IMG/VR virus record: IMGVR_UViG_3300047195_000577
Coordinates: 1-31,437 of that record
Reading direction: 5' to 3' (one strand)
DNA from: a virus
Length of the DNA: 31,437 bases
The notes below the pieces were generated by a model. The model made no database searches and had not been told where the DNA came from. It worked only from the letters and a program-made list of their open reading frames with translations. Below, one piece after another: positions 9,166 to 25,095 of the stretch (position 1 is its first letter; each line of letters opens with the position of its first letter). Made by a program: the position numbers and the translations under genes.

Positions 9166-11751
9166 ATGTTTGTCAGAACAGCAAGCAAGTGCAAGGACTG
9201 CCCCTTGCGAGATCGCAAACGAGTATGGGGCCAAGGCAAGCTAACAGGCATAGCCCTCATAGGAGAAGCCCCAGGTCAGGAGGAAGACTTTGAAGGAAAA
9301 CCTTTCGTGGGCCGCGCAGGTAAGGTCCTCACCTGGGGCGTGGAGAGCGCTCATATCCCGCGTGAAAGCCTTTGGCTCACCAACGCGCTTGCCTGCAGAC
9401 CCCCAGGCAATAAGATCGATAGCAGCGAAGCACAGCAAGCCCTCATGTGCTGCAAGCCAGGCTTCGATGAAGAACTCGAGTACCTGCAACGATCCAACAT
9501 TAGAGTCCTTGTGCCCCTGGGAGCTACCGCCTTGCGGGCCCTTGATCTGGATGGCAGCATTACGAAGGTTCGTGGTAGTGTATATCAGGTGGGTTCGTTT
9601 GTGGTGGTGCCTACTTTTCATCCCTCGTACATCATGCGGGCGCAGTTCAAGAAGGAAACATCGGAGGTAACGTATAAGTATGTCTGGATCGCGGACCTGC
9701 ACAAGGCCCATGAACTACTCGAAAAGGGCTGGCAAGCGCCACAAGAGCGCTTCGTTCTACAACCAATAGTTGAGGATGTTCTTGCGTGGTGCGATGAAGC
9801 GATCAGCAAGAAAGCCCTCATTGGGGTTGATATTGAGACCGACAGCAGTCACGTGTTCGTTATCGGCCTTGCAAGCAGCGGTGAAGACGCTCTCAGCGTT
9901 CCTATCTACCAACATGGAGGCTCCCCTTACTGGGTCAATGGCGATTGGCAACGAGTCAAGCACAAGCTCGACGAGCTGTTCCAACAATGTCCTCTCATGT
10001 TCCAGAACGCTTTGTTCGACGTACCGTACCTAAAAGGAGAAAGCTTTGCGATTGACTTTGATCGCGTCCAAGAGGACACTCTTGTACTTCACCATGCAAT
10101 CTCGCCAGAGCTTCCACACAATCTCGCTTTCATCGTATCGATCTACGGCGAGACACCCTACTGGAAGGCAGACTTACTGGATCGCAGGGGTAGTATTGCT
10201 GAAATGCCCGATGAGGTCCTACGGCGTTACAACTTACGGGATGCCGTGGTCCTCCATCAGGTCCTCCCTGGGATGCTCGCTGACCTACGGGAGATGGAGG
10301 CTGAAGACGTTTACCGCGAGGAATCTCTCAGGCTACTGGCTCCAGTAGGTGAGATGATAGCCACAGGTTTCAAGTTAGACAGCAAAAAGCTAGAAAGCAT
10401 CACGCTAGGTTGGAAGCATGAGCAAGCACATCTTGAGGCTACGCTCAAGCATGGTTTACCTTCTGGCTTTAACCTCGACAGCGATGATGACCTACGTTGG
10501 TTCTTGTTCGGTATCAAACCCGCGAAGTTCCAAAAGCTAGACAAGCTAAAGGAGTACAACGATGCTAGCAAAACAGGCAAACGCACACTACGTGCTGGGA
10601 CCAAGATCCACAAGGAACTACTTGCGCTACAGGAGATTGCTCTCAACATACAGCCCGTCTACCTGCTCGAAGGTTGGACTGGGAGGAAAACCAAGACGGG
10701 AAGCAGAGCTGTTGATAAGCAAGGTCTCCTCGCTTTCCAGATCCAACTTCAAAACAGGCTCAAGCTAGTCAAGGAGTTCAAGCATGAGAAGTTCAAAACA
10801 GAGCAAAGCAAGATCGAAAGCTTGCTTGCGTGGCTCGCAAGCTACAAGGAGTACTCAGAGCTCAGCAAGTTGCTTTCCACGTATACAAGCTATCCTGTTG
10901 GCCATGACGGAAGAGTTCACACGCAATTCCTTGTTCATGGAACTACTACTGGGAGGCTATCTAGCAGATCTCCAAACTTACAGAACTTGCCTAAGAAGCA
11001 TGAAGAAGCAAGGGAACCTTTTGTCGCATCTGAAGGTAATGTGCTGCTTAGCGCTGACTACAGCAACCTTGAGGTTAGAGTGCTTGCTTATGAAACGAAC
11101 GACAACGCTCTTGTACAAGCTCTTGCAGTTGGAACCAACATCCACGATGAAAATACCAGAGTACTTTTTGGGATAACCCCCCAAGACCCCAGGTGGGAGG
11201 TCGCCCGCAGAGCCGCGAAAGTTTTCATGTTCGGTGGCATAAGCTACGGAGGTAGTGATGCAGAGATCCACGAAAAGATATCCCTTGAGTGCCCCGAAAT
11301 GCTTCTCACTCGGGCTGAGTACATCGCTGCCAAGCATAGGTGGATGTCCGCTCATCCTGCGTATGGCATCTGGGCAGCTTCCATCAGGAAGCAGGTCCAC
11401 GTTACAAGAACGTCGCGCACGTTCTTGGGTAGGGTCAGAACATTGCATGGAGAACCAAGGGACATAGAAAAGGAAGCCTTGAACACGCCCATACAAGGCG
11501 GTGCAGCCCACATCATCAACAGGGCCATGATAGCAATTCATGCTAGAAAGCGAATCTTGAAGAGCAAGTTGTTAGTACAGATCCATGACCAGTTGATTTA
11601 TGATGTTCCTAAAGCCGAGTTAGAGATCATGATGCTGGTTGTGCGCGAGGAAATGGAAGCCCCCATGAAGTACTACAACAAACTTGCTAGCTTTCCTGTT
11701 GACCTTGCAACAGGCTCCAGTTGGGGGGACCTCCATGCAACAGAGGCCTGA
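9166..11751 (+). CDS. Uracil-DNA glycosylase-DNA polymerase A fusion
   Basis: This 861-residue replicative polymerase has three parts. Residues 1-190 form a family 4-like uracil-DNA glycosylase: Cys9 and Cys12 (CKDC), Cys77 (ACRPPGN) and Cys95 fit the Fe-S spacing, with GEAPGQEED (33-41) and HPSY (His152) as active-site motifs. Residues about 215-380 form a 3'-5' proofreading exonuclease with Asp222/Glu224 (VDIETD), FQNALFDVPYL and YNLRDAVVL. From about 580 onward is family A polymerase: motif A ADYSNLEVR (Asp631), motif B RRAAKVFMFGGISYG (near 680), motif C QIHDQLI (Asp808). No 5'-3' exonuclease is present. Phage SPO1 polymerase also carries an N-terminal UDG domain. The start ATG 9166 follows AAGGAGCC. 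Confidence 0.93.
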   Translation: MFVRTASKCKDCPLRDRKRVWGQGKLTGIALIGEAPGQEEDFEGKPFVGRAGKVLTWGVESAHIPRESLWLTNALACRPPGNKIDSSEAQQALMCCKPGFDEELEYLQRSNIRVLVPLGATALRALDLDGSITKVRGSVYQVGSFVVVPTFHPSYIMRAQFKKETSEVTYKYVWIADLHKAHELLEKGWQAPQERFVLQPIVEDVLAWCDEAISKKALIGVDIETDSSHVFVIGLASSGEDALSVPIYQHGGSPYWVNGDWQRVKHKLDELFQQCPLMFQNALFDVPYLKGESFAIDFDRVQEDTLVLHHAISPELPHNLAFIVSIYGETPYWKADLLDRRGSIAEMPDEVLRRYNLRDAVVLHQVLPGMLADLREMEAEDVYREESLRLLAPVGEMIATGFKLDSKKLESITLGWKHEQAHLEATLKHGLPSGFNLDSDDDLRWFLFGIKPAKFQKLDKLKEYNDASKTGKRTLRAGTKIHKELLALQEIALNIQPVYLLEGWTGRKTKTGSRAVDKQGLLAFQIQLQNRLKLVKEFKHEKFKTEQSKIESLLAWLASYKEYSELSKLLSTYTSYPVGHDGRVHTQFLVHGTTTGRLSSRSPNLQNLPKKHEEAREPFVASEGNVLLSADYSNLEVRVLAYETNDNALVQALAVGTNIHDENTRVLFGITPQDPRWEVARRAAKVFMFGGISYGGSDAEIHEKISLECPEMLLTRAEYIAAKHRWMSAHPAYGIWAASIRKQVHVTRTSRTFLGRVRTLHGEPRDIEKEALNTPIQGGAAHIINRAMIAIHARKRILKSKLLVQIHDQLIYDVPKAELEIMMLVVREEMEAPMKYYNKLASFPVDLATGSSWGDLHATEA

Positions 11752-13066: not shown

Positions 13067-13698
13067 GGAAGGAGCTTGCTTCACGCAAGCTAGCAGGGGA
13101 GAGCACAGCTAGCATAGCAGCAAGCTTACATGTCAGCGAGAGAACTATCTGGCGCATGCTCAAGCTAGAAGGTGTCGTGCTCAAGAGAGGCCGTAAGCTC
13201 AAAGATGACTTTTCGTGCTTTGCCAAGTACCTACAAGCACACCCTGAAGTGAAGCTGCCACGCAGCATCAAAGCTTGCAGCAAGCTGTCAGGGTGCTCTG
13301 CAGATAGCATCAAGATGTACTTGTACAGGCATAGAAGGGACATCTTGCAAGCAGTAGGCAAGTTGAACTTCACAACGCTGCCCCTCAAGATCAAGGACGT
13401 GAAAGGCCGTGTCATACCTTGTAGGGCTATTGAGACCTATAAAGTACGGGTTGAAAGCTGGACCCACGCAGTCAGGCTAGAAGCCAAGCTCAAGGGGGGA
13501 GCAGGACTAGCTTTGTTCAGGTTGTCTTCCAAGCTAGCCCTTGCTCTAACAGAACGTTATGGCCCGCCTTCGATCCAAGAGGGCACAGGGGTGCCCCCTG
13601 TGGCGGACAAGAACGCATGCCAAGGCTTACCGGCTTCAGCGAACTTGGCAGCATCGACTAGCTTGCGCAGTTCAAAAGCACCTGGCACAAAGGACTGA
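13039..13698 (+). CDS. Double helix-turn-helix DNA-binding protein (219 aa)
   Basis: ATG 13039, behind AAGGGAGGTC, overlaps the helicase by 28 bases. The first helix-turn-helix is TASIAASLHVSERTIWRMLK (about residues 23-42). A second is CSKLSGCSADSIKMYLYRHR (about 83-102), with a basic linker between. Phage regulators and terminase-small-subunit-like proteins share such HTHs. A regulator of the early/late switch or a replication initiator are alternatives. The last 45 residues lie antisense to the end of the 1900-residue virion gene and look low in complexity (Ala/Ser-rich), so the conserved domain probably ends near residue 175. Confidence 0.75.
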   Translation: MGSKLNEAVRKELASRKLAGESTASIAASLHVSERTIWRMLKLEGVVLKRGRKLKDDFSCFAKYLQAHPEVKLPRSIKACSKLSGCSADSIKMYLYRHRRDILQAVGKLNFTTLPLKIKDVKGRVIPCRAIETYKVRVESWTHAVRLEAKLKGGAGLALFRLSSKLALALTERYGPPSIQEGTGVPPVADKNACQGLPASANLAASTSLRSSKAPGTKD

Positions 13699-16600
13699 AA
13701 CATGCGTCCTTTGGTGGGGTTGAAGTTGGGTACCCCGTCTTTGATGGTGATGCCCCAAACGTCAGCCCGTGCCTGTGCGCCGCGTTGTCCGGGTGCTAGA
13801 CCACTTAACGTATTGATGCCCAGTTGCCAAACAGGTCCCCCTGTGAATTGCATAGGTGTCCAAGGCAAGAAGTCCTGTGCTTTGATACCGAGACCGTATT
13901 GCATCGCTCCTATGATGGCAGCAGAGTTCCAAAGCCAGCTAGCTACGAAGGTAGCCTTGCCAGCTGCGCTGCCGTACTTGAGGTTGCGACGTATGTTCTC
14001 AACGTAGTACAAGGGATAGTGGCCCATCATACCGAACAACTTGCCTACCACACCCCTGAAGGCCATGGGGGACATCCCTGCCCTATAGGGGAACATGGTC
14101 CAGTTAGTCATGTGGGAGGTATACAAGCCCCTGAGACCTCCCCACTGGCCATTGCGTGCGAGCTCTAGGGCTTGGTCTTTCACCTGAGGGGGTACTGAGT
14201 TCAGGCCAGCCAGTTCCAGGAAGTTCTGCTCTGGCATGTTGAGGCCACCTTTTAGGCTAGCCTGGTAGCGTTGCAGGGCATCATCAAAGCGCATCCCTGC
14301 AGCTTCATAAGCCACAACACGAGACCATTCATCGCTGTTGCGGTACCAACTCATGCCCTTGTTCAAGAACTTACCCATGAAGGTCTCGGGTCCCAGGGAC
14401 TTCAAGGTTTCCTCGCCACCTGCAACAGGTAGATTTGCAGCAAAGGTCCCCATAGCACGGTGGTGGTCGAACAGGCTCCCGTCAACGTCTTTGGCTACTT
14501 TCTGGATCGCTAGCTTCACCCAATGATTGCCTCGAGGACCAAGACTTGGTGCCAGCACGTTGTACACCTGCAACATGTTCCTAATAGGCAATAGGGGTTT
14601 GAAACCCATCGTGGACATGTAACTCATGCCAGTGAAGAACTTGATGAGATCCATTCCGAGACCTTGCTCTATGCCGAACTTCTGCAACGCTGCCAAGCTG
14701 CTTTCTTTCATGGCTTTCTCGAAGCCCCCTTGAGGCAAGCCCATGACGTCACTCATGTAGGCCCACATGCGAAGTTTCCCTACTTCATCAGTGCTCTCAG
14801 TAACTAGCTTCACCACTTCACCCCAGGTGTCCTTCAGGAGCAACTCACGGTGGCCAATAGCACCATAGCGTATGACTGCAGCGAGAGGGTCTAGCTCTTG
14901 TGAGAGTGCCAGAACATCGCTTACCCTGGTGTGCTGGAAGAACGCATCGATTTCCTTGGGGACGTTCTGGCCAAACACGTCCTTTAGGTATTCATTGATG
15001 CTGCCATCAGTGTACTTGGCTTGAGGATTACCTAAGAAGTGTTTATTCATTTTAGGAAAGTAGTCCTGCAAGAACCCCGCGACACCAAACTTCCCATGTA
15101 GGCCTTCTCCAGGTTTCACACCCCAAAGCTGCCTCAATAGCCTTCCTGCATTGAGCTCTGTCTCAGTAAGGCCTCTTGCAAGAACTACTGCAGGCTTGTC
15201 TGCATCGCTAGCACGGAACCATTCGCCTATGAACACCCTGCGTTCGAGCTTCATGGGTTTCTGGTTTGTATCCAAGAAGATGGTATGTGCAAGCTGGCCT
15301 AGCTCGTTGTCCTGACCTCGCATGACACCCCTGATGTCCTCGATACCCATTACGCCCTTTAGCAAGTTGGGATCTCCACCCTTTGCAGTGTGGCTCTCAA
15401 ACCACCCCACCGTGCCGCGCCAGTACTGGCTCACGGTGTCCCACTGCTTGCCAAGACGTGTTTTGGGTTCATTCACAACTAGCAGTTCTGGCGGAAAGGT
15501 CCCCTCAGCAGGCTTAGCAAAGGTCTCGTGTCCTATATAGCCAGACAGCTCTGGCATCCATTCAGGGGTGGGCACCTCAGCGATGCGTGCATGCAAGGCT
15601 TCTGTGCTGTTGAGCAAGATAGCCTTGCCAGTGCTGTCGTAAGCAAGCCACTTGCCGTTCTCAGGGACAATCCTCAAGCCTTTATGCAGGGCTGTCTTGC
15701 GGATCTCCTCGAAGTCTTTCCAACCCCCCTCGAGGTAGCCCTTCATGCTCGCCATGTCGTTGAAGACACGACGTTCGTTGATCTCAGGGATGAAAACCTC
15801 AAGTTGTTTAGACAACTTGCTGCCAGACAAGTACCCTTGCCCTGTAGCTTTCAAGTAAGTCTTGTTCTCGCTAAGCACCCTATCCTCAAAGCTATCGAAC
15901 TCCTTGAGGATGTCCTCGTAGTTGCCTGCTAGCAAGCCGTTCTTGTATTGCACCTCAACTTGCTTGCCTGGTATGACTATGGCAACCTGGGGGCCTAGAT
16001 CGCTGGGGATCTTGGGCATGATCTCGGGGTTGTTCGTAAGCAAGTCCTCTATGTTCTTGCCCTTGTAGAGCACGTTGGTGGGAGCTTTCCTCAGGTAGAC
16101 CTGGAGTTCTTTGTTCGTGGGGTCTAGCTTCAGTGAAAGTCCCTGTCTGTTCAAGAACGTCCTCAGGTAGGGCTCGTCTACTGTTTGAGCGATCAAGGTT
16201 CTTGCTAGGGCCTCGTAGCTGTCAAAGCTAGCTTCACGCACAACAGGACTAGCTAGATCCCCTGCCACTTCATGGATGCCTAGCATCACCTTACCTGTGG
16301 CGTTGTCAAACTTCACGCTTGCGTTCTGCAACGTCCCAGCAGCATAGTTGACCCACTCGGGGGAGAACACCTGCTGCTTGGCTAGCAACTTGGGGAAGTC
16401 CCTTGCAAAGCCCTTCTCCATGAGGGTCTTCTGCGTGCGCACCATCTGTTGGGGCATAAGGATGTCCTGCAAGCCTTTAGCTAGACTTTCAGGGCTCGCT
16501 GCACGCAGGGACTTGCCAGTAAGTTCCCCACCCAAGCCAGTATACACTGTGCCTTGCTGACGCATGATACCCTGGAGCTTACCTTTAGCATGCACTGACA

Positions 16601-19259
16601 CAAGGCCAGTACGGTAGCTTGTTAGAACACCCTCAAGAGCTCCCTTTGCTGTAGCAACCTTGCCCCTTACGAGATCTACTGGGGACATAGCAAAGTTTCC
16701 GCCCTTGATGGTCCCTGAAGTAAGAGCAAACTCCCACTCCTTGGGGGCGTTCTTCTGTACCCACCCGATAGGCTCACCCGCGAAGCTGACTCCCCTGCGG
16801 GAAGTACCCTTTGCCCTGGCTGTGACTTTCAAGTCCTTGATAGTTACCTTACCAAGATCATATGGCCGTACTGTTACAGCAGCTTGTTTGCCTACCATCT
16901 TGGTGGGGTAGATATCGAGACTGTCTAAGTACTGCATGATGTTCTGCAGGTAGCGCCCTTCACCTACTGCAGGGTCTATCTTGAGGGGTAGTTCTAGAAA
17001 GTCCTTAGGGTTTTCCCTGCTATGTATGCGGATCATCTTGTCAGCAGCATAGCTTCCCCTTACGTTGCTCGTGCTCTCAACAGGGGCTTTCACGAAGTCC
17101 ACCAACAGTCTGTTGAGGTTCTCCTCAGGAGCTCCTGAGATCCTAGCGTATTCCTTCACGAACTGCTGCAAGTTCACCCTGTCGTACTCAAGGGTAGTAG
17201 GGTTGACTGCAACAAGTTTTGCTGCCAGCTCAAGACGTTTTGAGTCAGCAAGAGGTAAGTTGCCTTTGAGCACTTCACGGATCTCAATATGCTGACTCGC
17301 TGCAGTGTAGGTCTTCAACATGGGCTCAGACAGCTTGGGTGCCTGCATCATGCGAGGTAGCAAGTCGGGGTAGTCTTTCATCAACCCTGCATTGATCTGG
17401 TAGCCTTGTCTCAGAGCATCACTTGCAGCTAGCTTGTGGATGTAGTCAACATTGAAGTCCTGATAGCCTGTCATGTGGGGTTGACCTGGTTCCTGCGCCC
17501 ACTTCCACCCATACATGTGATCTTTCACATGACGTAGTTCATGTGCTATGACTAGCTTCTGATCTGCTATATCTTTCATGCCTGAGAAGTCTAGCCTATA
17601 GTTGCCAGTCTCGTAGTTGTACTCTGTGATAGCCCAAGCGTTCTCGCTAAGCCTTCCATCAATGTTCTTGCTCACGTTGGTGCCGTTGTCCCACACAACG
17701 TCTAGCTTCTTGGTGTCAATACTCCATTCATCTGCCACGGCTTTGAGCCAGTTTTCATTGCTGTCTGACAGCTTGAGACCAAAGCGGCGTTCTAGTAGAG
17801 CACCACCGTAATCCATCAACATGGCTTGAGAGCTCGCGTAGCCCTGAGTTTCCCAGTTGCCGTGGACGTACTTCTCAAAAGCCTTTCGAGACATACTCGC
17901 TGGGGTGGCAGGCAGACCTTCTACCACCACGTTCTTGAGCAAGGTCTTTCCCTGGAGCACGTCAGCAACTTCTTGGGGTTTCAGCACAGGGAACATCCTA
18001 GTACGCCCTGCTTGTTCATAGGTCTGCGAAAGCCACGCTGTCGCGGCTTTGAAGTCAGCAAAGTCCATAGAACTACCCATGCCAGTCTCATAAAGCTGAA
18101 TAGCTTTGCTCTTGATGCTCTGTGCCACGGCGTAGTTGTTGGAGTTCGCCAGCATGGTGAAGATCTTCTCAGGCTCCGCTGAGGGCAAAAACCTGTTCAC
18201 CGCCACTGTCGTGCGCATGTTGTCAGTGGCAAGCTGCGCTGCTTTAGGGTAGCGAGCCAGTTCATCGGTGCTTATGTTAGCACCAGAGATAACCCTTCTC
18301 ATGAAGTCTTGAATGCCTTCATCGTTGAGGCCTTCGTAGTATGCTTTGTGTTGGCCTTTGGGTAAGAACGCTAGCTTGGCCCCCCTCAGCAAGGGCCACA
18401 CTGTGTCGGTGGCCATGTTCATGAGAGCGTCACCAAGGAAGTAACCCCCAAACCACTTGGCGTTCTTCTTGAGCAAGTCAGCTATGTTGGCATCTTTGGG
18501 GGCTTGATTGAGCACAGCAAGCATGTTCTCACGCAGTACCCCTATCGCTGCAGTGGTGCTCGCGTGGGCTGCTGCACCAGCGAGACCCCAAAGGGCGATC
18601 TTAACAGGGCTCGTGGCCTTGCTTGCTGCACTGATGATGCCACGCATGGCTAGCTTGCCGAGACCTACAGGAGCCGCACTTCCCCCTGTGATAGGCAGCA
18701 ACATCAAGAACTCTGCCATGGTAGGCAACACTGTTGAGGCTATCTTGAGCAAGCTCGTCCTTCTTGACATGTCTTCATCGGGTGCTATTTCAGCCTCAAA
18801 GAAATCAGAAAGCCTCATTCGATCACGGGGGTTTGCAGCCCAAAACTGAGAGGCCTCCAACTCAGGAGACCTCACTACATCTTTCTCGTGTGCTATCAAG
18901 GGGGCTATCAACTTCGTGCCAAAAAAGTTAGTTAGCATGCTAGAGTTAATCAAGGAACTCTGTGCTACGAGGTTGGACATGTACTTGAGAGCCTTTTTAT
19001 CGCCCTTCTTGGCTCCCTGAGAAAGTGTAAGTGCCTGCACTTCAAGATCCTTGTCTCTCAAGGCAGGTCTAGTAAGAACAATGTTTCCTAGAACCTCATA
19101 TTGTGCTCTTGGTGAGAGAGACTTAAATTGATCGTCTACTGCAAGATAATCGCTTGCTATTTTGCTGCGAACCTCCACTTGACCTCTGTAAGAAAGGTCT
19201 TGGAACTTTTCATCGTTGTCCAGCTCCAGCATCTTCTGGAGCAATACCTGTCCTCCCAT
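13557..19259 (-). CDS. Giant internal virion (ejection) protein with HELRH metallopeptidase motif
   Basis: At 1900 residues this is the largest gene, placed last in the virion operon after two smaller internal-protein candidates, as T7 gp16 follows gp14 and gp15. T7-type proteins of this class form the ejectosome that carries DNA across the cell envelope. The N-terminal quarter has hydrophobic stretches (about 175-240). VIAHELRHVKDHMYG (570-584; His573, Glu574, His577) is a classic zincin HExxH motif. Near the C-terminus is another hydrophobic segment (FVASWLWNSAAIIGAM). In T7 gp16 the enzymatic domain is a transglycosylase, so a peptidase would be a different choice. The start ATG 19259 has only a distant AAGGA. 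It overlaps the HTH gene antisense by 142 bases. Confidence 0.85.
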   Translation of the reverse strand: MGGQVLLQKMLELDNDEKFQDLSYRGQVEVRSKIASDYLAVDDQFKSLSPRAQYEVLGNIVLTRPALRDKDLEVQALTLSQGAKKGDKKALKYMSNLVAQSSLINSSMLTNFFGTKLIAPLIAHEKDVVRSPELEASQFWAANPRDRMRLSDFFEAEIAPDEDMSRRTSLLKIASTVLPTMAEFLMLLPITGGSAAPVGLGKLAMRGIISAASKATSPVKIALWGLAGAAAHASTTAAIGVLRENMLAVLNQAPKDANIADLLKKNAKWFGGYFLGDALMNMATDTVWPLLRGAKLAFLPKGQHKAYYEGLNDEGIQDFMRRVISGANISTDELARYPKAAQLATDNMRTTVAVNRFLPSAEPEKIFTMLANSNNYAVAQSIKSKAIQLYETGMGSSMDFADFKAATAWLSQTYEQAGRTRMFPVLKPQEVADVLQGKTLLKNVVVEGLPATPASMSRKAFEKYVHGNWETQGYASSQAMLMDYGGALLERRFGLKLSDSNENWLKAVADEWSIDTKKLDVVWDNGTNVSKNIDGRLSENAWAITEYNYETGNYRLDFSGMKDIADQKLVIAHELRHVKDHMYGWKWAQEPGQPHMTGYQDFNVDYIHKLAASDALRQGYQINAGLMKDYPDLLPRMMQAPKLSEPMLKTYTAASQHIEIREVLKGNLPLADSKRLELAAKLVAVNPTTLEYDRVNLQQFVKEYARISGAPEENLNRLLVDFVKAPVESTSNVRGSYAADKMIRIHSRENPKDFLELPLKIDPAVGEGRYLQNIMQYLDSLDIYPTKMVGKQAAVTVRPYDLGKVTIKDLKVTARAKGTSRRGVSFAGEPIGWVQKNAPKEWEFALTSGTIKGGNFAMSPVDLVRGKVATAKGALEGVLTSYRTGLVSVHAKGKLQGIMRQQGTVYTGLGGELTGKSLRAASPESLAKGLQDILMPQQMVRTQKTLMEKGFARDFPKLLAKQQVFSPEWVNYAAGTLQNASVKFDNATGKVMLGIHEVAGDLASPVVREASFDSYEALARTLIAQTVDEPYLRTFLNRQGLSLKLDPTNKELQVYLRKAPTNVLYKGKNIEDLLTNNPEIMPKIPSDLGPQVAIVIPGKQVEVQYKNGLLAGNYEDILKEFDSFEDRVLSENKTYLKATGQGYLSGSKLSKQLEVFIPEINERRVFNDMASMKGYLEGGWKDFEEIRKTALHKGLRIVPENGKWLAYDSTGKAILLNSTEALHARIAEVPTPEWMPELSGYIGHETFAKPAEGTFPPELLVVNEPKTRLGKQWDTVSQYWRGTVGWFESHTAKGGDPNLLKGVMGIEDIRGVMRGQDNELGQLAHTIFLDTNQKPMKLERRVFIGEWFRASDADKPAVVLARGLTETELNAGRLLRQLWGVKPGEGLHGKFGVAGFLQDYFPKMNKHFLGNPQAKYTDGSINEYLKDVFGQNVPKEIDAFFQHTRVSDVLALSQELDPLAAVIRYGAIGHRELLLKDTWGEVVKLVTESTDEVGKLRMWAYMSDVMGLPQGGFEKAMKESSLAALQKFGIEQGLGMDLIKFFTGMSYMSTMGFKPLLPIRNMLQVYNVLAPSLGPRGNHWVKLAIQKVAKDVDGSLFDHHRAMGTFAANLPVAGGEETLKSLGPETFMGKFLNKGMSWYRNSDEWSRVVAYEAAGMRFDDALQRYQASLKGGLNMPEQNFLELAGLNSVPPQVKDQALELARNGQWGGLRGLYTSHMTNWTMFPYRAGMSPMAFRGVVGKLFGMMGHYPLYYVENIRRNLKYGSAAGKATFVASWLWNSAAIIGAMQYGLGIKAQDFLPWTPMQFTGGPVWQLGINTLSGLAPGQRGAQARADVWGITIKDGVPNFNPTKGRMFQSFVPGAFELRKLVDAAKFAEAGKPWHAFLSATGGTPVPSWIEGGP
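13584..13602. terminator. Hairpin in the convergent gene overlap
   Basis: CACAGGGG and CCCCTGTG with a TGC loop form an eight-pair stem inside the 142-base overlap of the two opposing arms. Neither strand has a T-tract after it, so it does not look like a standard intrinsic terminator. It is the only strong dyad at the meeting point and could slow or pause polymerases from both sides. Confidence 0.35.
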
Positions 19260-19260
19260 G

Positions 19261-21528
19261 TTATTGGAAGTATCCTTGAGCTTCCGCGCTTAGAGGAGTC
19301 TCTTTGTTCACCGTTGGGTTGCTCCCAGGAGGAGCTCCTGTTTTAGGACCCGGGAATCCAAAGTTCTCTCCTACAACTTCTCCCATTCCAGGAATCTTTT
19401 GCCCAAGCCCCAAAAGGTTTAAGAACCACCCTGTTGCTGGCGTGGTGTTGCTCCTCACATCGAGACTCCCCAACCACTGACCATTCGCATCGAAGTACTG
19501 CCAGAAGTTTGTAAGGACTCCAAGAACAAGCTCCCTTTGCTGTTTGTAGATAGGATTTGCCATAGCAATGTTCCATTCCTTAGTGACCTTCACGAGGTCA
19601 TCAGGATTGTTCTTCATTGCAGTGCTCATTACATCCTTGAGCATAAGCAAGCCTGCCTCGTAGCTTTTCATGAGCAAGGCTCCTTGCTGAGTTTTGAGCC
19701 ATTCTTGCGCGGTACCAGTAAGCATTTGTGTTTGGAGATAATTTGATAGAGCCTGAAACTGTTCTGTGTTCAGGGCTTTACCCTTGATACCTTCAAGACC
19801 CGGGACTTCTACTGTGATCTTGAAGACCTTCTCACCCATGCGTTCCTCTTGTGCCCTTGCAGTCTGTGCATTGTACGCTGCGGTGTTGATCCCTGCTACA
19901 AATAAGCTTTGACCTTTTTGCGCATCACCATTTCCCAACATCTTAAAGTAGCTATCTTTGGCAATCTCTTGGAAACGGCTTGTTCCTTTAGGTAAAGAGG
20001 AAAAATACTCATTGAGCGCTCCTGATGTTCTTGCAGCATCCCCCTTACCAATCTCAACTCCCGCTGCGCTCTTCGCAAAATGCTCGTATAGATTCTTGCC
20101 AAGCTTCCAAGCAGCCTTGTTTGGCACTGCATCAGGTTCCACGAAGGGAAGCACAACACCCTGCTTGGCCCCTGAAGGGACAAAATCCTTAGGAGGCTCT
20201 GTCCTGGGATCTATGGGAACATTGGTTTTGAGCACCTTTATCTGCTCTGTTTTCTTGACAGTCTTTGTAGGAATCAAGGACTCCTGCAAGGCAAGCGAAC
20301 TCGCAAGCCCTTCGTCAACGACAACACCGTTGATAGTCCCTTTAGAAAGCCAGTATGTCTTACGGCCCCCTTGCCAAGCAGCAAGTTTCTTGGGGTCCTT
20401 CGCAATATCAGCAGTAGGTCCTGTCCCCACAACCTCAATGGGTTGCGCCATTACAGCAGCACCCCCATGAGAAACCATCGCGGCTGCCTCTTCTGGGGTG
20501 ATTTTTACAGTTGCCTGTGCAGGAGGCTGCCTGGAGGGCTGTTGTAGAGCAGAAGAAGCTCCAGCAACTCCTAACCCTGCTGTAGGGGTCCTTCTAGCAA
20601 GCATTGCTTCTGTCGCAGTCTGCCTTCGTGTTGATATAGGAACCTCTGCAGGGAGTCCTTCTCCTATGTTCCAACCAGCAGACTTAGGAATATCTCCTCC
20701 TACAAGCTCATAACGAGCCCGCTCTGCCAAGGGGATCTCGGGGTTATTGGTCCTGATCTGATAGAGAGCTTTGTTCGCTTCATCGAGGGTGATTTCCTTA
20801 CGTTGATAAGCCCCCAAGACAGTTTTGCTGAAGGAAGCCTTAAACTCTGCCTGTCGTGCGGGGTCTGTGATGCTTTGATACCACTCATGGGTAGTTCCTA
20901 CTTTGGCGGGGTCTAGTCGTCCTCCCTTAGCATCTCGTTCAAAGATTGCCTTGTAATCGCTGTAAACCTGGTTAAGTACCGTGTTGTATTGAGGGCGCTC
21001 CACAGGAGCTGCAGGGGTCTCCGCTGTAGCTGCTTTGCCCTGACCTGAGATCTTCTTAGTACCTACAATCTCTTGGTAGTTCGTAATGGTCTTGAGTTCA
21101 GTTTCCAAGTCTGAAGGACCCAAATCAGCGAGGGTGCCTTTCTCACCGGAAAGGAACTTATTCACTATTGCAGTCTGAATGTCTATCTGGGAAAACGGTG
21201 CTTCTAAGGTAGCCTTTGCCCATTGCGCGATAGCTGCATCAGACATACCTAGCGAGGAATAAAGGTTCTTATACATCTCTCCAAACTCATCGAAGGCCGC
21301 AAGGGGTCCTACTCCATCAGCCCCAAAAGCACGTTCAGCGTACTTTTTATCAATGCTTTCCAACAGTTTGAGGTTTTTGTTAAGATCCTGTTCCCTTTCC
21401 ATCAACTTCAACTGCTTAGCGTTCTGCATGAGCTTTATGCTTGCCTGCATGCTTTCGTTGGCATACTTGAGTGCGCTCACGAGGGGGTTTTCTTTTCCTT
21501 GTATAACGGTAGGACTAGATATTGCCAC
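19261..21528 (-). CDS. Internal virion protein, T7 gp15-like by position (755 aa)
   Basis: It starts at GTG 21528 behind AGGAGGTTAAT and ends two bases before the giant gene. The protein is Ala/Gln/Lys-rich with long helices (SMQASIKLMQNAKQLKLMERE near residues 27-47), an Ala/Pro-rich middle (PAAPVERP, QPSRQPPAQA) and a helical C-terminal third that ends Gly/Pro-rich. No enzyme motif is visible. Position between a 191-residue Ala/Gly-rich protein and a very large C-terminal neighbour suggests the second ejection protein of a short-tailed phage. Sequence similarity to T7 gp15 is not evident by eye. Confidence 0.75.
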   Translation of the reverse strand: MAISSPTVIQGKENPLVSALKYANESMQASIKLMQNAKQLKLMEREQDLNKNLKLLESIDKKYAERAFGADGVGPLAAFDEFGEMYKNLYSSLGMSDAAIAQWAKATLEAPFSQIDIQTAIVNKFLSGEKGTLADLGPSDLETELKTITNYQEIVGTKKISGQGKAATAETPAAPVERPQYNTVLNQVYSDYKAIFERDAKGGRLDPAKVGTTHEWYQSITDPARQAEFKASFSKTVLGAYQRKEITLDEANKALYQIRTNNPEIPLAERARYELVGGDIPKSAGWNIGEGLPAEVPISTRRQTATEAMLARRTPTAGLGVAGASSALQQPSRQPPAQATVKITPEEAAAMVSHGGAAVMAQPIEVVGTGPTADIAKDPKKLAAWQGGRKTYWLSKGTINGVVVDEGLASSLALQESLIPTKTVKKTEQIKVLKTNVPIDPRTEPPKDFVPSGAKQGVVLPFVEPDAVPNKAAWKLGKNLYEHFAKSAAGVEIGKGDAARTSGALNEYFSSLPKGTSRFQEIAKDSYFKMLGNGDAQKGQSLFVAGINTAAYNAQTARAQEERMGEKVFKITVEVPGLEGIKGKALNTEQFQALSNYLQTQMLTGTAQEWLKTQQGALLMKSYEAGLLMLKDVMSTAMKNNPDDLVKVTKEWNIAMANPIYKQQRELVLGVLTNFWQYFDANGQWLGSLDVRSNTTPATGWFLNLLGLGQKIPGMGEVVGENFGFPGPKTGAPPGSNPTVNKETPLSAEAQGYFQ

Positions 21529-21537
21529 ATTAACCTC

Positions 21538-22113
21538 CTATAGCATTGCACCGAGCACCGTAGCTCCTGTTGCAGCATTGCTTGACACATAACCCATAAG
21601 GTCTCCCAACCAGGTGTTCTGCTGTACATAGGTCGGCTGCCAGTACTCAGGTGCAGCGAGGCTTCCACCAACCCCCGCAAGCTGCCCAAAGAGGCCTTGC
21701 TGGCTCTGTAGCAATCCTGCTCCTGCCCCTGCAAGTTGGCCTGCTAGCTGGGTTTGCATTGCCATGATGTCCTTCGCGGCGCCAGCTTGCACTTCAGCAG
21801 CAGCTTTGCCCGCTGCCCCCGCAGCCCCGCTACTGTAGTAAGCGTTCTCCTCGTTGTAGGGTGTAATCGCTGCCTTTACAGCCCCAGGTGTTATGGCATT
21901 GGCATAGTCCTGCGCAGCTTTCGCATAAGGGCTATTAGCTCCCACAGCCTGCTCAAACAACCCTGGCAGGGCTTTCATGAATGCCCCCATGGGGTCCATG
22001 GCGCTTTCCTGGATGCCTCCCATGAGGCCCATGATTTGCTTCATGAAAGCGTCTGTTTGGGGGTTTACGTTCTTGACATCGCTAGCACTGCCATAACCTT
22101 TTACTTCTGTCAC
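21538..22113 (-). CDS. Small internal virion protein, T7 gp14-like by position (191 aa)
   Basis: GTG 22113, behind AAGGAGGTCAAC, overlaps the transglycosylase stop (GTGA). The protein is rich in Ala, Gly, Gln and Met, with GAAGAAGKAAAEVQAGAAKD (about residues 95-114) and QLAGQLAGAGAGLLQSQQG (about 122-140). Such amphipathic, Gly/Ala-rich segments are typical of ejection proteins that insert in the outer membrane. It is the first of three size-ordered internal-protein candidates. The role is inferred from composition and order. Confidence 0.72.
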   Translation of the reverse strand: MTEVKGYGSASDVKNVNPQTDAFMKQIMGLMGGIQESAMDPMGAFMKALPGLFEQAVGANSPYAKAAQDYANAITPGAVKAAITPYNEENAYYSSGAAGAAGKAAAEVQAGAAKDIMAMQTQLAGQLAGAGAGLLQSQQGLFGQLAGVGGSLAAPEYWQPTYVQQNTWLGDLMGYVSSNAATGATVLGAML

Positions 22114-22559
22114 GTTGACCTCCTTGCTTCCGTGATGGAAAGCTGCACTTCAGGCAACACAGCATAGAGGGCCTTCATGTAAGGCAAGACTCTTGCTACA
22201 TAGGCTTTTCGTTTGTTCTCCCTATCTGGCAACGCACCTGCGTTGTAAACACCCAAGCCTTTCTCAAGGCCGTATTTCTCAACGTTCTGCCTGAGGAACC
22301 TAACCCCATAGGCTATATGTGCATCAACATCGTTCTTGAATTGAGGATGAAACCTTGAGTTAAGCTGGAACAACCCAAAGTCCACTGAGCCGTCTTTGTT
22401 GGGTTTTCCTTTCACCTTGGACTTGAAGTTGCTCTCGTGTCCCACAACAGACAACGCCACGATGGGATTGAAGTTCTGCTTGATGGCTTCTTTCCAGACC
22501 TTCTCCACTAGCTTTACGTCCCATTTGTTCTTGCTCGCTAAGGCCTCGTAGAGCTTCAA
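22110..22559 (-). CDS. Lytic transglycosylase (SLT-like), TTG start
   Basis: The protein (149 aa) has the lysozyme-like SLT fold markers: PIVALSVVGHESNF with the catalytic Glu42, SVDFGLFQLNSRFHP (about residues 60-74), and GVYNAG near the end, which match the E, GLFQ-N and Y-N-G pattern of the family. It cleaves the peptidoglycan glycan strand. In this position it is more likely to be a virion-associated enzyme that opens a local hole on entry than the main endolysin. The start is taken as TTG 22559, which overlaps the GNAT stop (TTGA) and follows GGGAGGAGGTGAAGC. No ATG is usable. Confidence 0.87.
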   Translation of the reverse strand: MKLYEALASKNKWDVKLVEKVWKEAIKQNFNPIVALSVVGHESNFKSKVKGKPNKDGSVDFGLFQLNSRFHPQFKNDVDAHIAYGVRFLRQNVEKYGLEKGLGVYNAGALPDRENKRKAYVARVLPYMKALYAVLPEVQLSITEARRST

Positions 22560-23032
22560 AGCTTCACCTCCTCCCGTAACAGGCTGTAGATATGAATGTC
22601 TATCAAGCGTCCTTTTGCTAAAGCCGCTGCTCTCATGCAGCCCTCGTGACGGAAGCCAAGACGTTCCTGCAAGAACCTCCTCACGGCCCTGGCGTAGTCC
22701 GCCACGTAGGTCTCCAAACGTTCTAGCCTGAATGTAACAAAGGCCCAAAACAAGCACTCCCGCAAGCACACCTGCCTTGAGCTGAGGTGCTTGTCCCAGA
22801 AGGTAGCATGAAACTCTGCCTTGTGGCCAGGCACGATGTGCTTGATGAGCACCAAGCCCCCCTCGAGCTCCAACGTGATGCTGTCGCGGGCCAGAAAGTT
22901 CTCCAGGAAGACTTCTGGATTTTTCATGTCCTCGTCGGTGAACAGACTCTCGAAAGGCTTTAGCTTCTCCCATAGGTCAAAGAGCTTCTCACGTGAGAAT
23001 GCTGCAAGTTTCACCCCCATCGGCAAGTCCAT
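22556..23032 (-). CDS. GNAT-fold acetyltransferase-like protein (158 aa)
   Basis: ATG 23032 is preferred, fused to the previous stop as TGATG with GAGGAT upstream; an in-frame TTG at 23035 is possible. The N-terminal half is helix then strand (ITLELEGGLVLIKHI), and the C-terminal part reads ARAVRRFLQERLGFRHEG, then KGRLIDIHIYSLLREE. These are the end of a GNAT acetyltransferase of the RimJ-like kind (GF-x-x-EG, then G-x-x-x-D-x-x-x-Y-S-L-L). Genes like this recur between tail and internal-protein genes of podoviruses, with unknown substrate. The acetyl-CoA loop (Q/RxxGxG/A) is poorly conserved, so activity is uncertain. Confidence 0.75.
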   Translation of the reverse strand: MDLPMGVKLAAFSREKLFDLWEKLKPFESLFTDEDMKNPEVFLENFLARDSITLELEGGLVLIKHIVPGHKAEFHATFWDKHLSSRQVCLRECLFWAFVTFRLERLETYVADYARAVRRFLQERLGFRHEGCMRAAALAKGRLIDIHIYSLLREEVKL

Positions 23033-25095
23033 CAAGAATCCTCTCGTCCAGGTACTTCGCCGCCGAGTACCCTTACTTTCATGGTGATCTCGTTGAGCAC
23101 ATAAGGTGCTATATCAGCAACAGAAGTCAACCTGAACCTCACGCAAGAACCTCTCATGCGGAAGTTCACAGCACCCTCGTCATGGTCTGCTAGAATGCGT
23201 AGCGTGCCTAAAGGCTTCCAATGCTGCCCACGGTCGTTGGAAGCTTGCACAATGAAGTCCAAGTTGCTTGTCACCCAGGTCTCAAGCTTCACCCCAAACT
23301 GGTAGAACAATTTCTCATCATCAGGGAGATTGTAGTCCATGTCACGGGTAATCAACTCAACCCCTATTGCGGTGCCTTCATCGTTGTTGCTGTCAACCAC
23401 GTACTTCCAAATAGTGTCATGCTTGAGGATGTAGACATCCTTGATTGTGGTACTGGAGCCCTTGATAGATTCCCAGGTGGGAAACCCCGCAAGCTCAGAA
23501 CCTGCCCATGTGGCTGCAGCCTTCACGATGCGGTAATGTACCAAGGCAGCATCTGCTGGCGCAACATCAACCATCTCGAGGGTAGTAAGATTAGTCACGC
23601 TGAGCACCGTGGTAGCAAAGTCATAGTTGCCAGTCCCAAGTGTATCCACAAGAACACTGTCTCCAGCGGCCACTACAAAGGCCGTTACCCAGTCAGTTCC
23701 GTTGCCCACAAGGGTAGCGTCACCAAGCACTGTTGTGACATGGCCGGTGTCATAATCTTGCGATACAAAGGTCTCCCAAGTCAAGCTATTGACCCACGAG
23801 TTCGTAGCTAGCATGTGGCAGTTGATGTCCTCCCACGTCCAGGCTTTGGTCTTGTAATTGAAGCTCCAGATAGCCTCAATTTCGTTGGTATCCTTAGGAA
23901 ACCCAAACAACACCCTATCGTTGAGCAAGTCTGTCGCGGCACAGATCTTCCAGTGACGTGTAGGTGCTACTTCAACGATGCTGCGCTTCACGATAGGGGT
24001 TCCTATGGGAGCAAGCCCGTTGGGGCTTAGAGCATAGATGTCGTCTTGACCTACAAAGAACAAACTGTCTATCCAACTAGTCACGGCACGCATGCCAAGC
24101 AGCCCTACACCGCCGGTTTCTAGCTTCTGAAAGCTCAAGGGCAAGTTGAGCAAGTTGGTCTGGCGTCCCACATAGATTGCATCATCAAAGAACGCTACGA
24201 GGAAGTCCCCCAAGGGCACCAAGCGCTTGATCTCACCTTTCACGTAAGGCAGATCTAGATAGCCTCCATTGGTGAAGTCATCAAGGTCGCCTAGCTCTGT
24301 CCAACGTATGCGTTGCCTGCATTGCTGGCCGCCTTCAAAGATGTTTGCTATCCACACCCTGTTCTTGAAGTACGTCACACAGCTCGGTATCAAGTCTGTC
24401 TCAGCAGCGTTGTAGTCAGTAAAGTCAGTACCATTGTAGCTGTAAAGGAACCTACTGGAATCAGCAAAGAGAATCTTAGGTGTTCCCCCTGTGATGACAA
24501 CGCTATCTACAATATAGGGCTGTGTCGCACCAAAGGACCTTCTGATCTTCCAGTTAGCCCCATGGTAGCTTCCTGAGGCCCCCGAAGTGAGAACGAGGGC
24601 TGTTCCATTTGTGATGCTTGTAATCTCGTCAGCAAACTCATAAGTAGCACCATACACCAGCACATCACGATAACCAAGTTCATTTACGCTATCGTTCCAA
24701 TGAGTGTCAATGTCCGCAGCAACAGCGGTGCTCCCTGCAGTGGTGGTAACATGACTTGTCCCAGGAGCATACTCCCAATAGAGCCCCGTGGTAGTCCCTA
24801 AAGTGATCTCATAAACGAACTTCTGATCCATCGCAATGAGTTTCTGGACACCCGACACAGACCAGAAGCTATCCAAAGCCTGCCAAGGAGGGTAACTCGC
24901 AGCAAGGCTGTTAAACAACTTTGTCCCAGGTCTCCTTTTGAGACCTCCTCCTGTTGCAACAAGGTTTTTAGCTTCCAAACACGCCCCTTCAGCAACCATC
25001 TGAGGGGGCACGTTGAGCACAATGCCTTTGTTGTACGGCCTCTCAAAGCCTGTTTGGGAGTTCCCTGGAATGACTATGCTTTCTGCAGTAGCCAT
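23032..25095 (-). CDS. Tail tube/nozzle beta-propeller protein (T7 gp12 / P22 gp10-like)
   Basis: This 687-residue, beta-rich protein has the opening of the short-tailed phage nozzle group: GFERPYNKGIVLNVPPQM, then ATGGGLKRRPGTKLFNSL (about residues 45-62). Repeated blade-like units follow, such as GDFLVAFFDDAIYVGR, SLFFVGQDDIYALS and DRVLFGFPKDTNEIEAIWSFNY. T7 gp12 and P22 gp10 form the tail tube or nozzle below the portal and adaptor rings. The middle holds a low-identity insertion (TTVLGDATLVGNGTDWV and around). ATG 25095 directly follows the membrane gene stop, behind AAAGGAAAGG. Confidence 0.82.
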   Translation of the reverse strand: MATAESIVIPGNSQTGFERPYNKGIVLNVPPQMVAEGACLEAKNLVATGGGLKRRPGTKLFNSLAASYPPWQALDSFWSVSGVQKLIAMDQKFVYEITLGTTTGLYWEYAPGTSHVTTTAGSTAVAADIDTHWNDSVNELGYRDVLVYGATYEFADEITSITNGTALVLTSGASGSYHGANWKIRRSFGATQPYIVDSVVITGGTPKILFADSSRFLYSYNGTDFTDYNAAETDLIPSCVTYFKNRVWIANIFEGGQQCRQRIRWTELGDLDDFTNGGYLDLPYVKGEIKRLVPLGDFLVAFFDDAIYVGRQTNLLNLPLSFQKLETGGVGLLGMRAVTSWIDSLFFVGQDDIYALSPNGLAPIGTPIVKRSIVEVAPTRHWKICAATDLLNDRVLFGFPKDTNEIEAIWSFNYKTKAWTWEDINCHMLATNSWVNSLTWETFVSQDYDTGHVTTVLGDATLVGNGTDWVTAFVVAAGDSVLVDTLGTGNYDFATTVLSVTNLTTLEMVDVAPADAALVHYRIVKAAATWAGSELAGFPTWESIKGSSTTIKDVYILKHDTIWKYVVDSNNDEGTAIGVELITRDMDYNLPDDEKLFYQFGVKLETWVTSNLDFIVQASNDRGQHWKPLGTLRILADHDEGAVNFRMRGSCVRFRLTSVADIAPYVLNEITMKVRVLGGEVPGREDS

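Follow-up and report, generated by a model that had tools for sequence, protein, structure and literature searches.

An HELRH-bearing, lineage-specific module in a giant phage protein at the gp16 position: a candidate zincin-like metallopeptidase

Metallopeptidase (MPTase) domains carrying an HExxH motif are found in about 36% of polyvalent proteins (PMC5512222). The MPTase core in these proteins consists of an N-terminal helix, three strands, the HExxH helix and then a helix with a Glu ligand, and one widespread phage clade is marked by an Asp three residues after HExxH together with a His that closes strand 2 (PMC5512222). Iyer et al. (2017) favour self-processing as the function of such domains in polyvalent proteins, leaving open an attack on host proteins (PMC5512222). 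Among phage proteins that enter the cell, the N4 virion RNA polymerase (vRNAP) is a giant ejected protein, and domain swapping is known to occur between ejection proteins (PMC8954989).

The stretch of DNA analysed here (hereafter, the window) comprises the 31437 bases of a virus record, which may be a fragment. It belongs to a tailed virus that infects bacteria or archaea, and gene order and size suggest the short-tailed type. Its late block lies on the minus strand and comprises overlapping or closely spaced genes encoding, in order, a protein of 687 aa, a GNAT-like protein, an SLT transglycosylase and proteins of 191, 755 and 1900 aa (Table 1). This block is opposed by a plus-strand replication block with a primase/helicase and a family A DNA polymerase that bears an N-terminal domain of the UDG superfamily. 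The polymerase and the uracil-DNA-glycosylase-superfamily domain occur in one protein (9166-11751; PF03167, E = 2.5e-21; PF00476, E = 5e-62), and the vir526 polymerase aligns with it over the same length at 44% identity.

Table 1. Positions in the window of the late genes, of the parts of the giant protein and of the HELRH motif.
Feature	Position	Strand	Basis
687-aa virion structural protein	23032..25095	minus	phrog_3287, E 1.9e-15
GNAT-like / head-morphogenesis-like small protein	22556..23035	minus	weak PHROGs matches; homologues in four relatives
SLT transglycosylase gene	22110..22559	minus	Pfam PF01464 above its cut-off
191-aa protein, gp14 position	21538..22113	minus	ORF; homologues in L036, L040
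755-aa protein, gp15 position	19261..21528	minus	ORF; size vs T7 gp15 747 aa (PMC8954989)
1900-aa giant protein, gp16 position	13557..19259	minus	ORF; homologous giant genes, same place, 15 related records
Conserved N-terminal module, residues 1-378	18126..19259	minus	comparison with relatives
Lineage-specific module, residues ~379-651	17307..18125	minus	BLASTP and alignments; boundaries +/- ~30 residues
Putative zincin-like core, residues 494-640, inside the module	17340..17780	minus	helix/strand order, two low-confidence models
HELRH motif, residues 573-577	17529-17543	minus	ORF translation
Second stretch missing from L036, residues ~780-906	16542..16922	minus	alignments
Conserved C-terminal module, residues ~949-1900	13557..16415	minus	comparison with relatives

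The last three late genes are adjacent and stand in the order gp14-like, gp15-like, gp16-like. Because this gene order and the rough sizes of the products resemble those of T7 gp14, gp15 and gp16, the 1900-aa protein is likely to be ejected with the DNA at infection. No sequence similarity of the cassette to known or solved ejection proteins was detected in PDB, Pfam or PHROGs. The initial annotation had placed the transglycosylase activity in a separate gene, as the Pfam match confirms; this gene uses a TTG start that overlaps the preceding stop. An SLT match occurred in only two of the 13 records searched, the window and L013, the L013 copy lying in a different place. The gene is thus possibly a further lineage-specific element added to the cassette. 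L036 and L040 have no counterpart of it at that place.

Related records were gathered with the polymerase, and then with the conserved ends of the giant protein, as bait. This yielded 16 records in which a giant gene occupies the equivalent place, and in 15 of them it also has sequence similarity; in the remaining record, L017, the giant (1335 aa) gave no BLAST match to that of the window and was assigned by position alone. The 16 are not all independent, as L005 and L006 are the same over the giant gene and both are 98% identical to L002. The C-terminal module aligns in 15 related giants and the N-terminal module in the closer ones. Neither the giant protein nor its relatives gave anything usable in Pfam, PHROGs or NCBIfam, and a PDB sequence search with the giant protein returned no match.

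Examining the closest relatives, L036 and L037 (33% identity to the 1900-aa protein), revealed that they align with it from about residue 12 to 376 and again from about residue 652 through to the end, and that some 55 residues stand in for the roughly 273 of the window protein. In addition, the L032 giant (1245 aa) lacks the entire centre. HELRH therefore belongs to a discrete module, which was either gained here or lost in the sister lineages. No HExxH was found in the related giants (about 24,500 residues in 16 records), and on these comparisons the motif arrived or vanished together with its domain, rather than eroding. The GC content of the module (0.51) is no different from that of its flanks (0.50-0.53), so that a recent transfer is not indicated. 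No recognisable domain was found in the second stretch missing from L036.

The centres of three other giants, in L010 (18931-19593, minus strand), L009 (9309-9971, minus strand) and L007 (8595-9227, minus strand), carry a different conserved domain with the pattern GFDG ... FYPD/N. Its likeness by eye to the ADP-ribosyltransferase of polyvalent proteins was not confirmed, as Pfam gave no match.

The motif lies in VIAHELRHVKDHMYG, which the initial annotation had singled out and which the ORF translation bears out as residues 570-584 of the 1900-aa protein (17508-17552, minus strand). HELRH is the sole HExxH within this protein, and Asp580 stands three residues past it. R576 and K579 deviate from the classical zincin signature, abXHEbbHbc. 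An HExxH of any kind arose in 2.3% of composition-preserving shuffles of the whole protein and in 0.6% of shuffles of the 273-residue module alone, falling to 0.44% and 0.03%, respectively, when the hydrophobic lead-in was included; HELRH having been chosen by eye, these percentages serve as a guide and not as a test. When all six frames of the window were scanned for ORFs, two further HExxH motifs emerged: HECPH, which lies in an overlapping frame, and HEQAH in the DNA polymerase, the latter a chance match. Since HEQAH occurs there, and since HExxH is over-represented only twofold in proteins at large (PMC3650047), the bare motif is weak evidence.

We modelled residues 439-669 and 494-640 with AlphaFold, in both cases without relatives, and obtained pLDDT values of 36 and 40.5, which make the models too poor for use; fold searches with them gave no meaningful match. 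The second of these low-confidence models comprises a helix (499-511), a hairpin (543-548/553-557), the motif helix (564-583) and a further helix (604-611), and the first, also poor, agrees in outline; in both, HELRH falls within helix 564-583. Candidate third zinc ligands downstream of the motif are Asp605 and Glu645, and an LSEPM in the module resembles, by eye, the NEFMA of N4. No His was found near predicted strand 2 in the low-confidence model. Aligning the module against 11 N4-type MPTase domains with hhalign gave no significant match (probability 0.9%, E = 0.06), the alignment being confined to the motif. Taking the prior and the motif together, a zincin fold seems fairly likely for the module.

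Searches for relatives of the module, which had limited reach, gave no family match in Pfam, PHROGs or NCBIfam and no homologue in phages and plasmids (tblastn), in viral contigs, in the records of 12 relatives or in about 400 bacterial genomes. Two marginal matches among 398 genomes (E = 3e-4 and 5e-4 per genome) proved to be an unrelated protein that lacks HExxH and a short frame that reads HTLRH. Degenerate DNA patterns fared no better: AHELRHxxD matched 54 loci in the viral contigs and AHELRHVxD 70 loci in the genomes, mostly in frames that look non-coding, with no relative of the module in either set. No provirus bearing the conserved modules was found in the bacterial genomes. The initial annotation had held that loss of the His and Glu residues in homologues would speak against a peptidase; the loss that we found is that of the entire module, and no homologue of the module came to light. 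One locus, L060:3-5303 (minus strand), contains a giant phage ORF of 1767 aa, cut by the end of the locus, that has VAHELRHAAD close to the N-terminus, followed later by DUF7178, and is possibly a separate zincin-bearing polyvalent protein.

A zincin metallopeptidase is the best reading of the module, and it fits both the polyvalent-protein theme and the N4 vRNAP. On balance we favour a zincin-like metallopeptidase of the phage polyvalent-protein type, carried as ejected cargo, that would cut either the giant protein itself or a protein of the host. We thus regard the module as probably a member of a known theme, the phage-delivered peptidase, and not as an established zincin. The earlier proposal of a peptidase-bearing ejection protein is borne out in part: the gp16-type position, the separate transglycosylase gene and the confinement of the motif to a discrete module are in agreement with it, and the AlphaFold models are too poor to support the zincin fold.

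Gene order and size suggest that the 1900-aa protein would be the largest of three ejection proteins, with its conserved N- and C-terminal modules presumably belonging to the ejection machinery and the HELRH module, as lineage-specific cargo, set between them. His573 and His577 would hold the zinc and Glu574 would activate the water, with a downstream acidic residue, Glu645 or Asp605, as the putative third ligand. Carried into the cell within the ejected protein, the module may there cut the giant protein and so release its parts, or else act on a protein of the host at an early stage of infection; we slightly prefer self-processing, for which Iyer et al. (2017) argue. More tentatively, the giants may share a conserved injection chassis with a central cargo slot that is filled lineage by lineage: by a zincin peptidase of a new family here, by other domains in L007/L009/L010 and in L013, and by nothing in L032. 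On that view the virus would use a single chassis to inject exchangeable enzymes.

Alternatively, the module could be an unrelated accessory domain, for example a structural or membrane-interacting part of an ejection protein, in which HELRH matches by chance within a helix. The size and content of ejection proteins vary greatly (PMC8954989), chance motifs such as that in the polymerase do occur, the motif has little excess in proteins at large, and neither the structure nor the profile tests lend support to a zincin. Against this stand the rarity of the motif with its lead-in among the shuffles, most of all for the module, and the placement of the motif, which both models put in the helix that follows a hairpin, as in zincins, and we consider a chance match unlikely, albeit with some weight.

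A rather improbable variant is that the module retains a zincin fold that is no longer proteolytic and helps the giant protein to be packaged or assembled. In N4, encapsidation of the vRNAP depends on its HExxH region, yet the protein is packaged without being processed (PMC5512222), and a clear third-ligand Glu like that in N4's NEFMAW was not found in the module. However, both His residues and the catalytic Glu are intact here, whereas inactive zincins are often substituted at these positions (PMC3650047), and the relatives are presumably packaged without any such module.

Proteins are the substrate of most zincin peptidases, which counts against the option, raised in the initial annotation, of a peptidase that cuts cell-wall peptides and so aids the phage through the envelope. 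Wall-degrading domains are frequent in ejection proteins (PMC8954989), but such a role is very unlikely here, being less needed in a cassette that already encodes a transglycosylase, and the module resembles no known wall peptidase in the family searches.

If the preferred reading of a zincin-like peptidase is true, this would be another phage that injects a peptidase with its DNA, and the relatives with and without the module on one chassis would offer a natural comparison. The role of HExxH domains in ejected proteins, self-processing as against attack on the host, would then be testable by removing a single module.

Compared with described systems, the giant protein resembles phage-type polyvalent proteins (PMC5512222) in its giant size, its several domains, its likely delivery at infection and the one HExxH domain in its middle, and the order of helices and strands seen in the poor models is similar to that of polyvalent MPTases (PMC5512222). 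Asp580 recalls the clade with an Asp three residues after HExxH, whose strand-2 His is missing here (PMC5512222). As a point of difference, none of the polyvalent-type domains tested gave a significant match by sequence or by profile, and no other polyvalent domain was recognised. The likeness to the N4 vRNAP, gp50 of the Schitoviridae, with its HExxH-bearing C1 domain, lies in a giant gene at the same position, convergent to the replication block; unlike gp50, the window protein gives no match to an RNA polymerase domain in Pfam or PHROGs and no significant hhalign match to the N4 domains, and its ejection is proposed from gene position. The cassette differs from that of T7 in its separate transglycosylase gene, in the extra central modules of the giant protein and in having no detectable match to the solved proteins. 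In its layout it is nevertheless like that of T7 gp14-gp15-gp16 (196, 747 and 1318 aa; PMC8954989), with three adjacent genes in the same order encoding 191, 755 and 1900 aa, the first two of which match their T7 equivalents in size.
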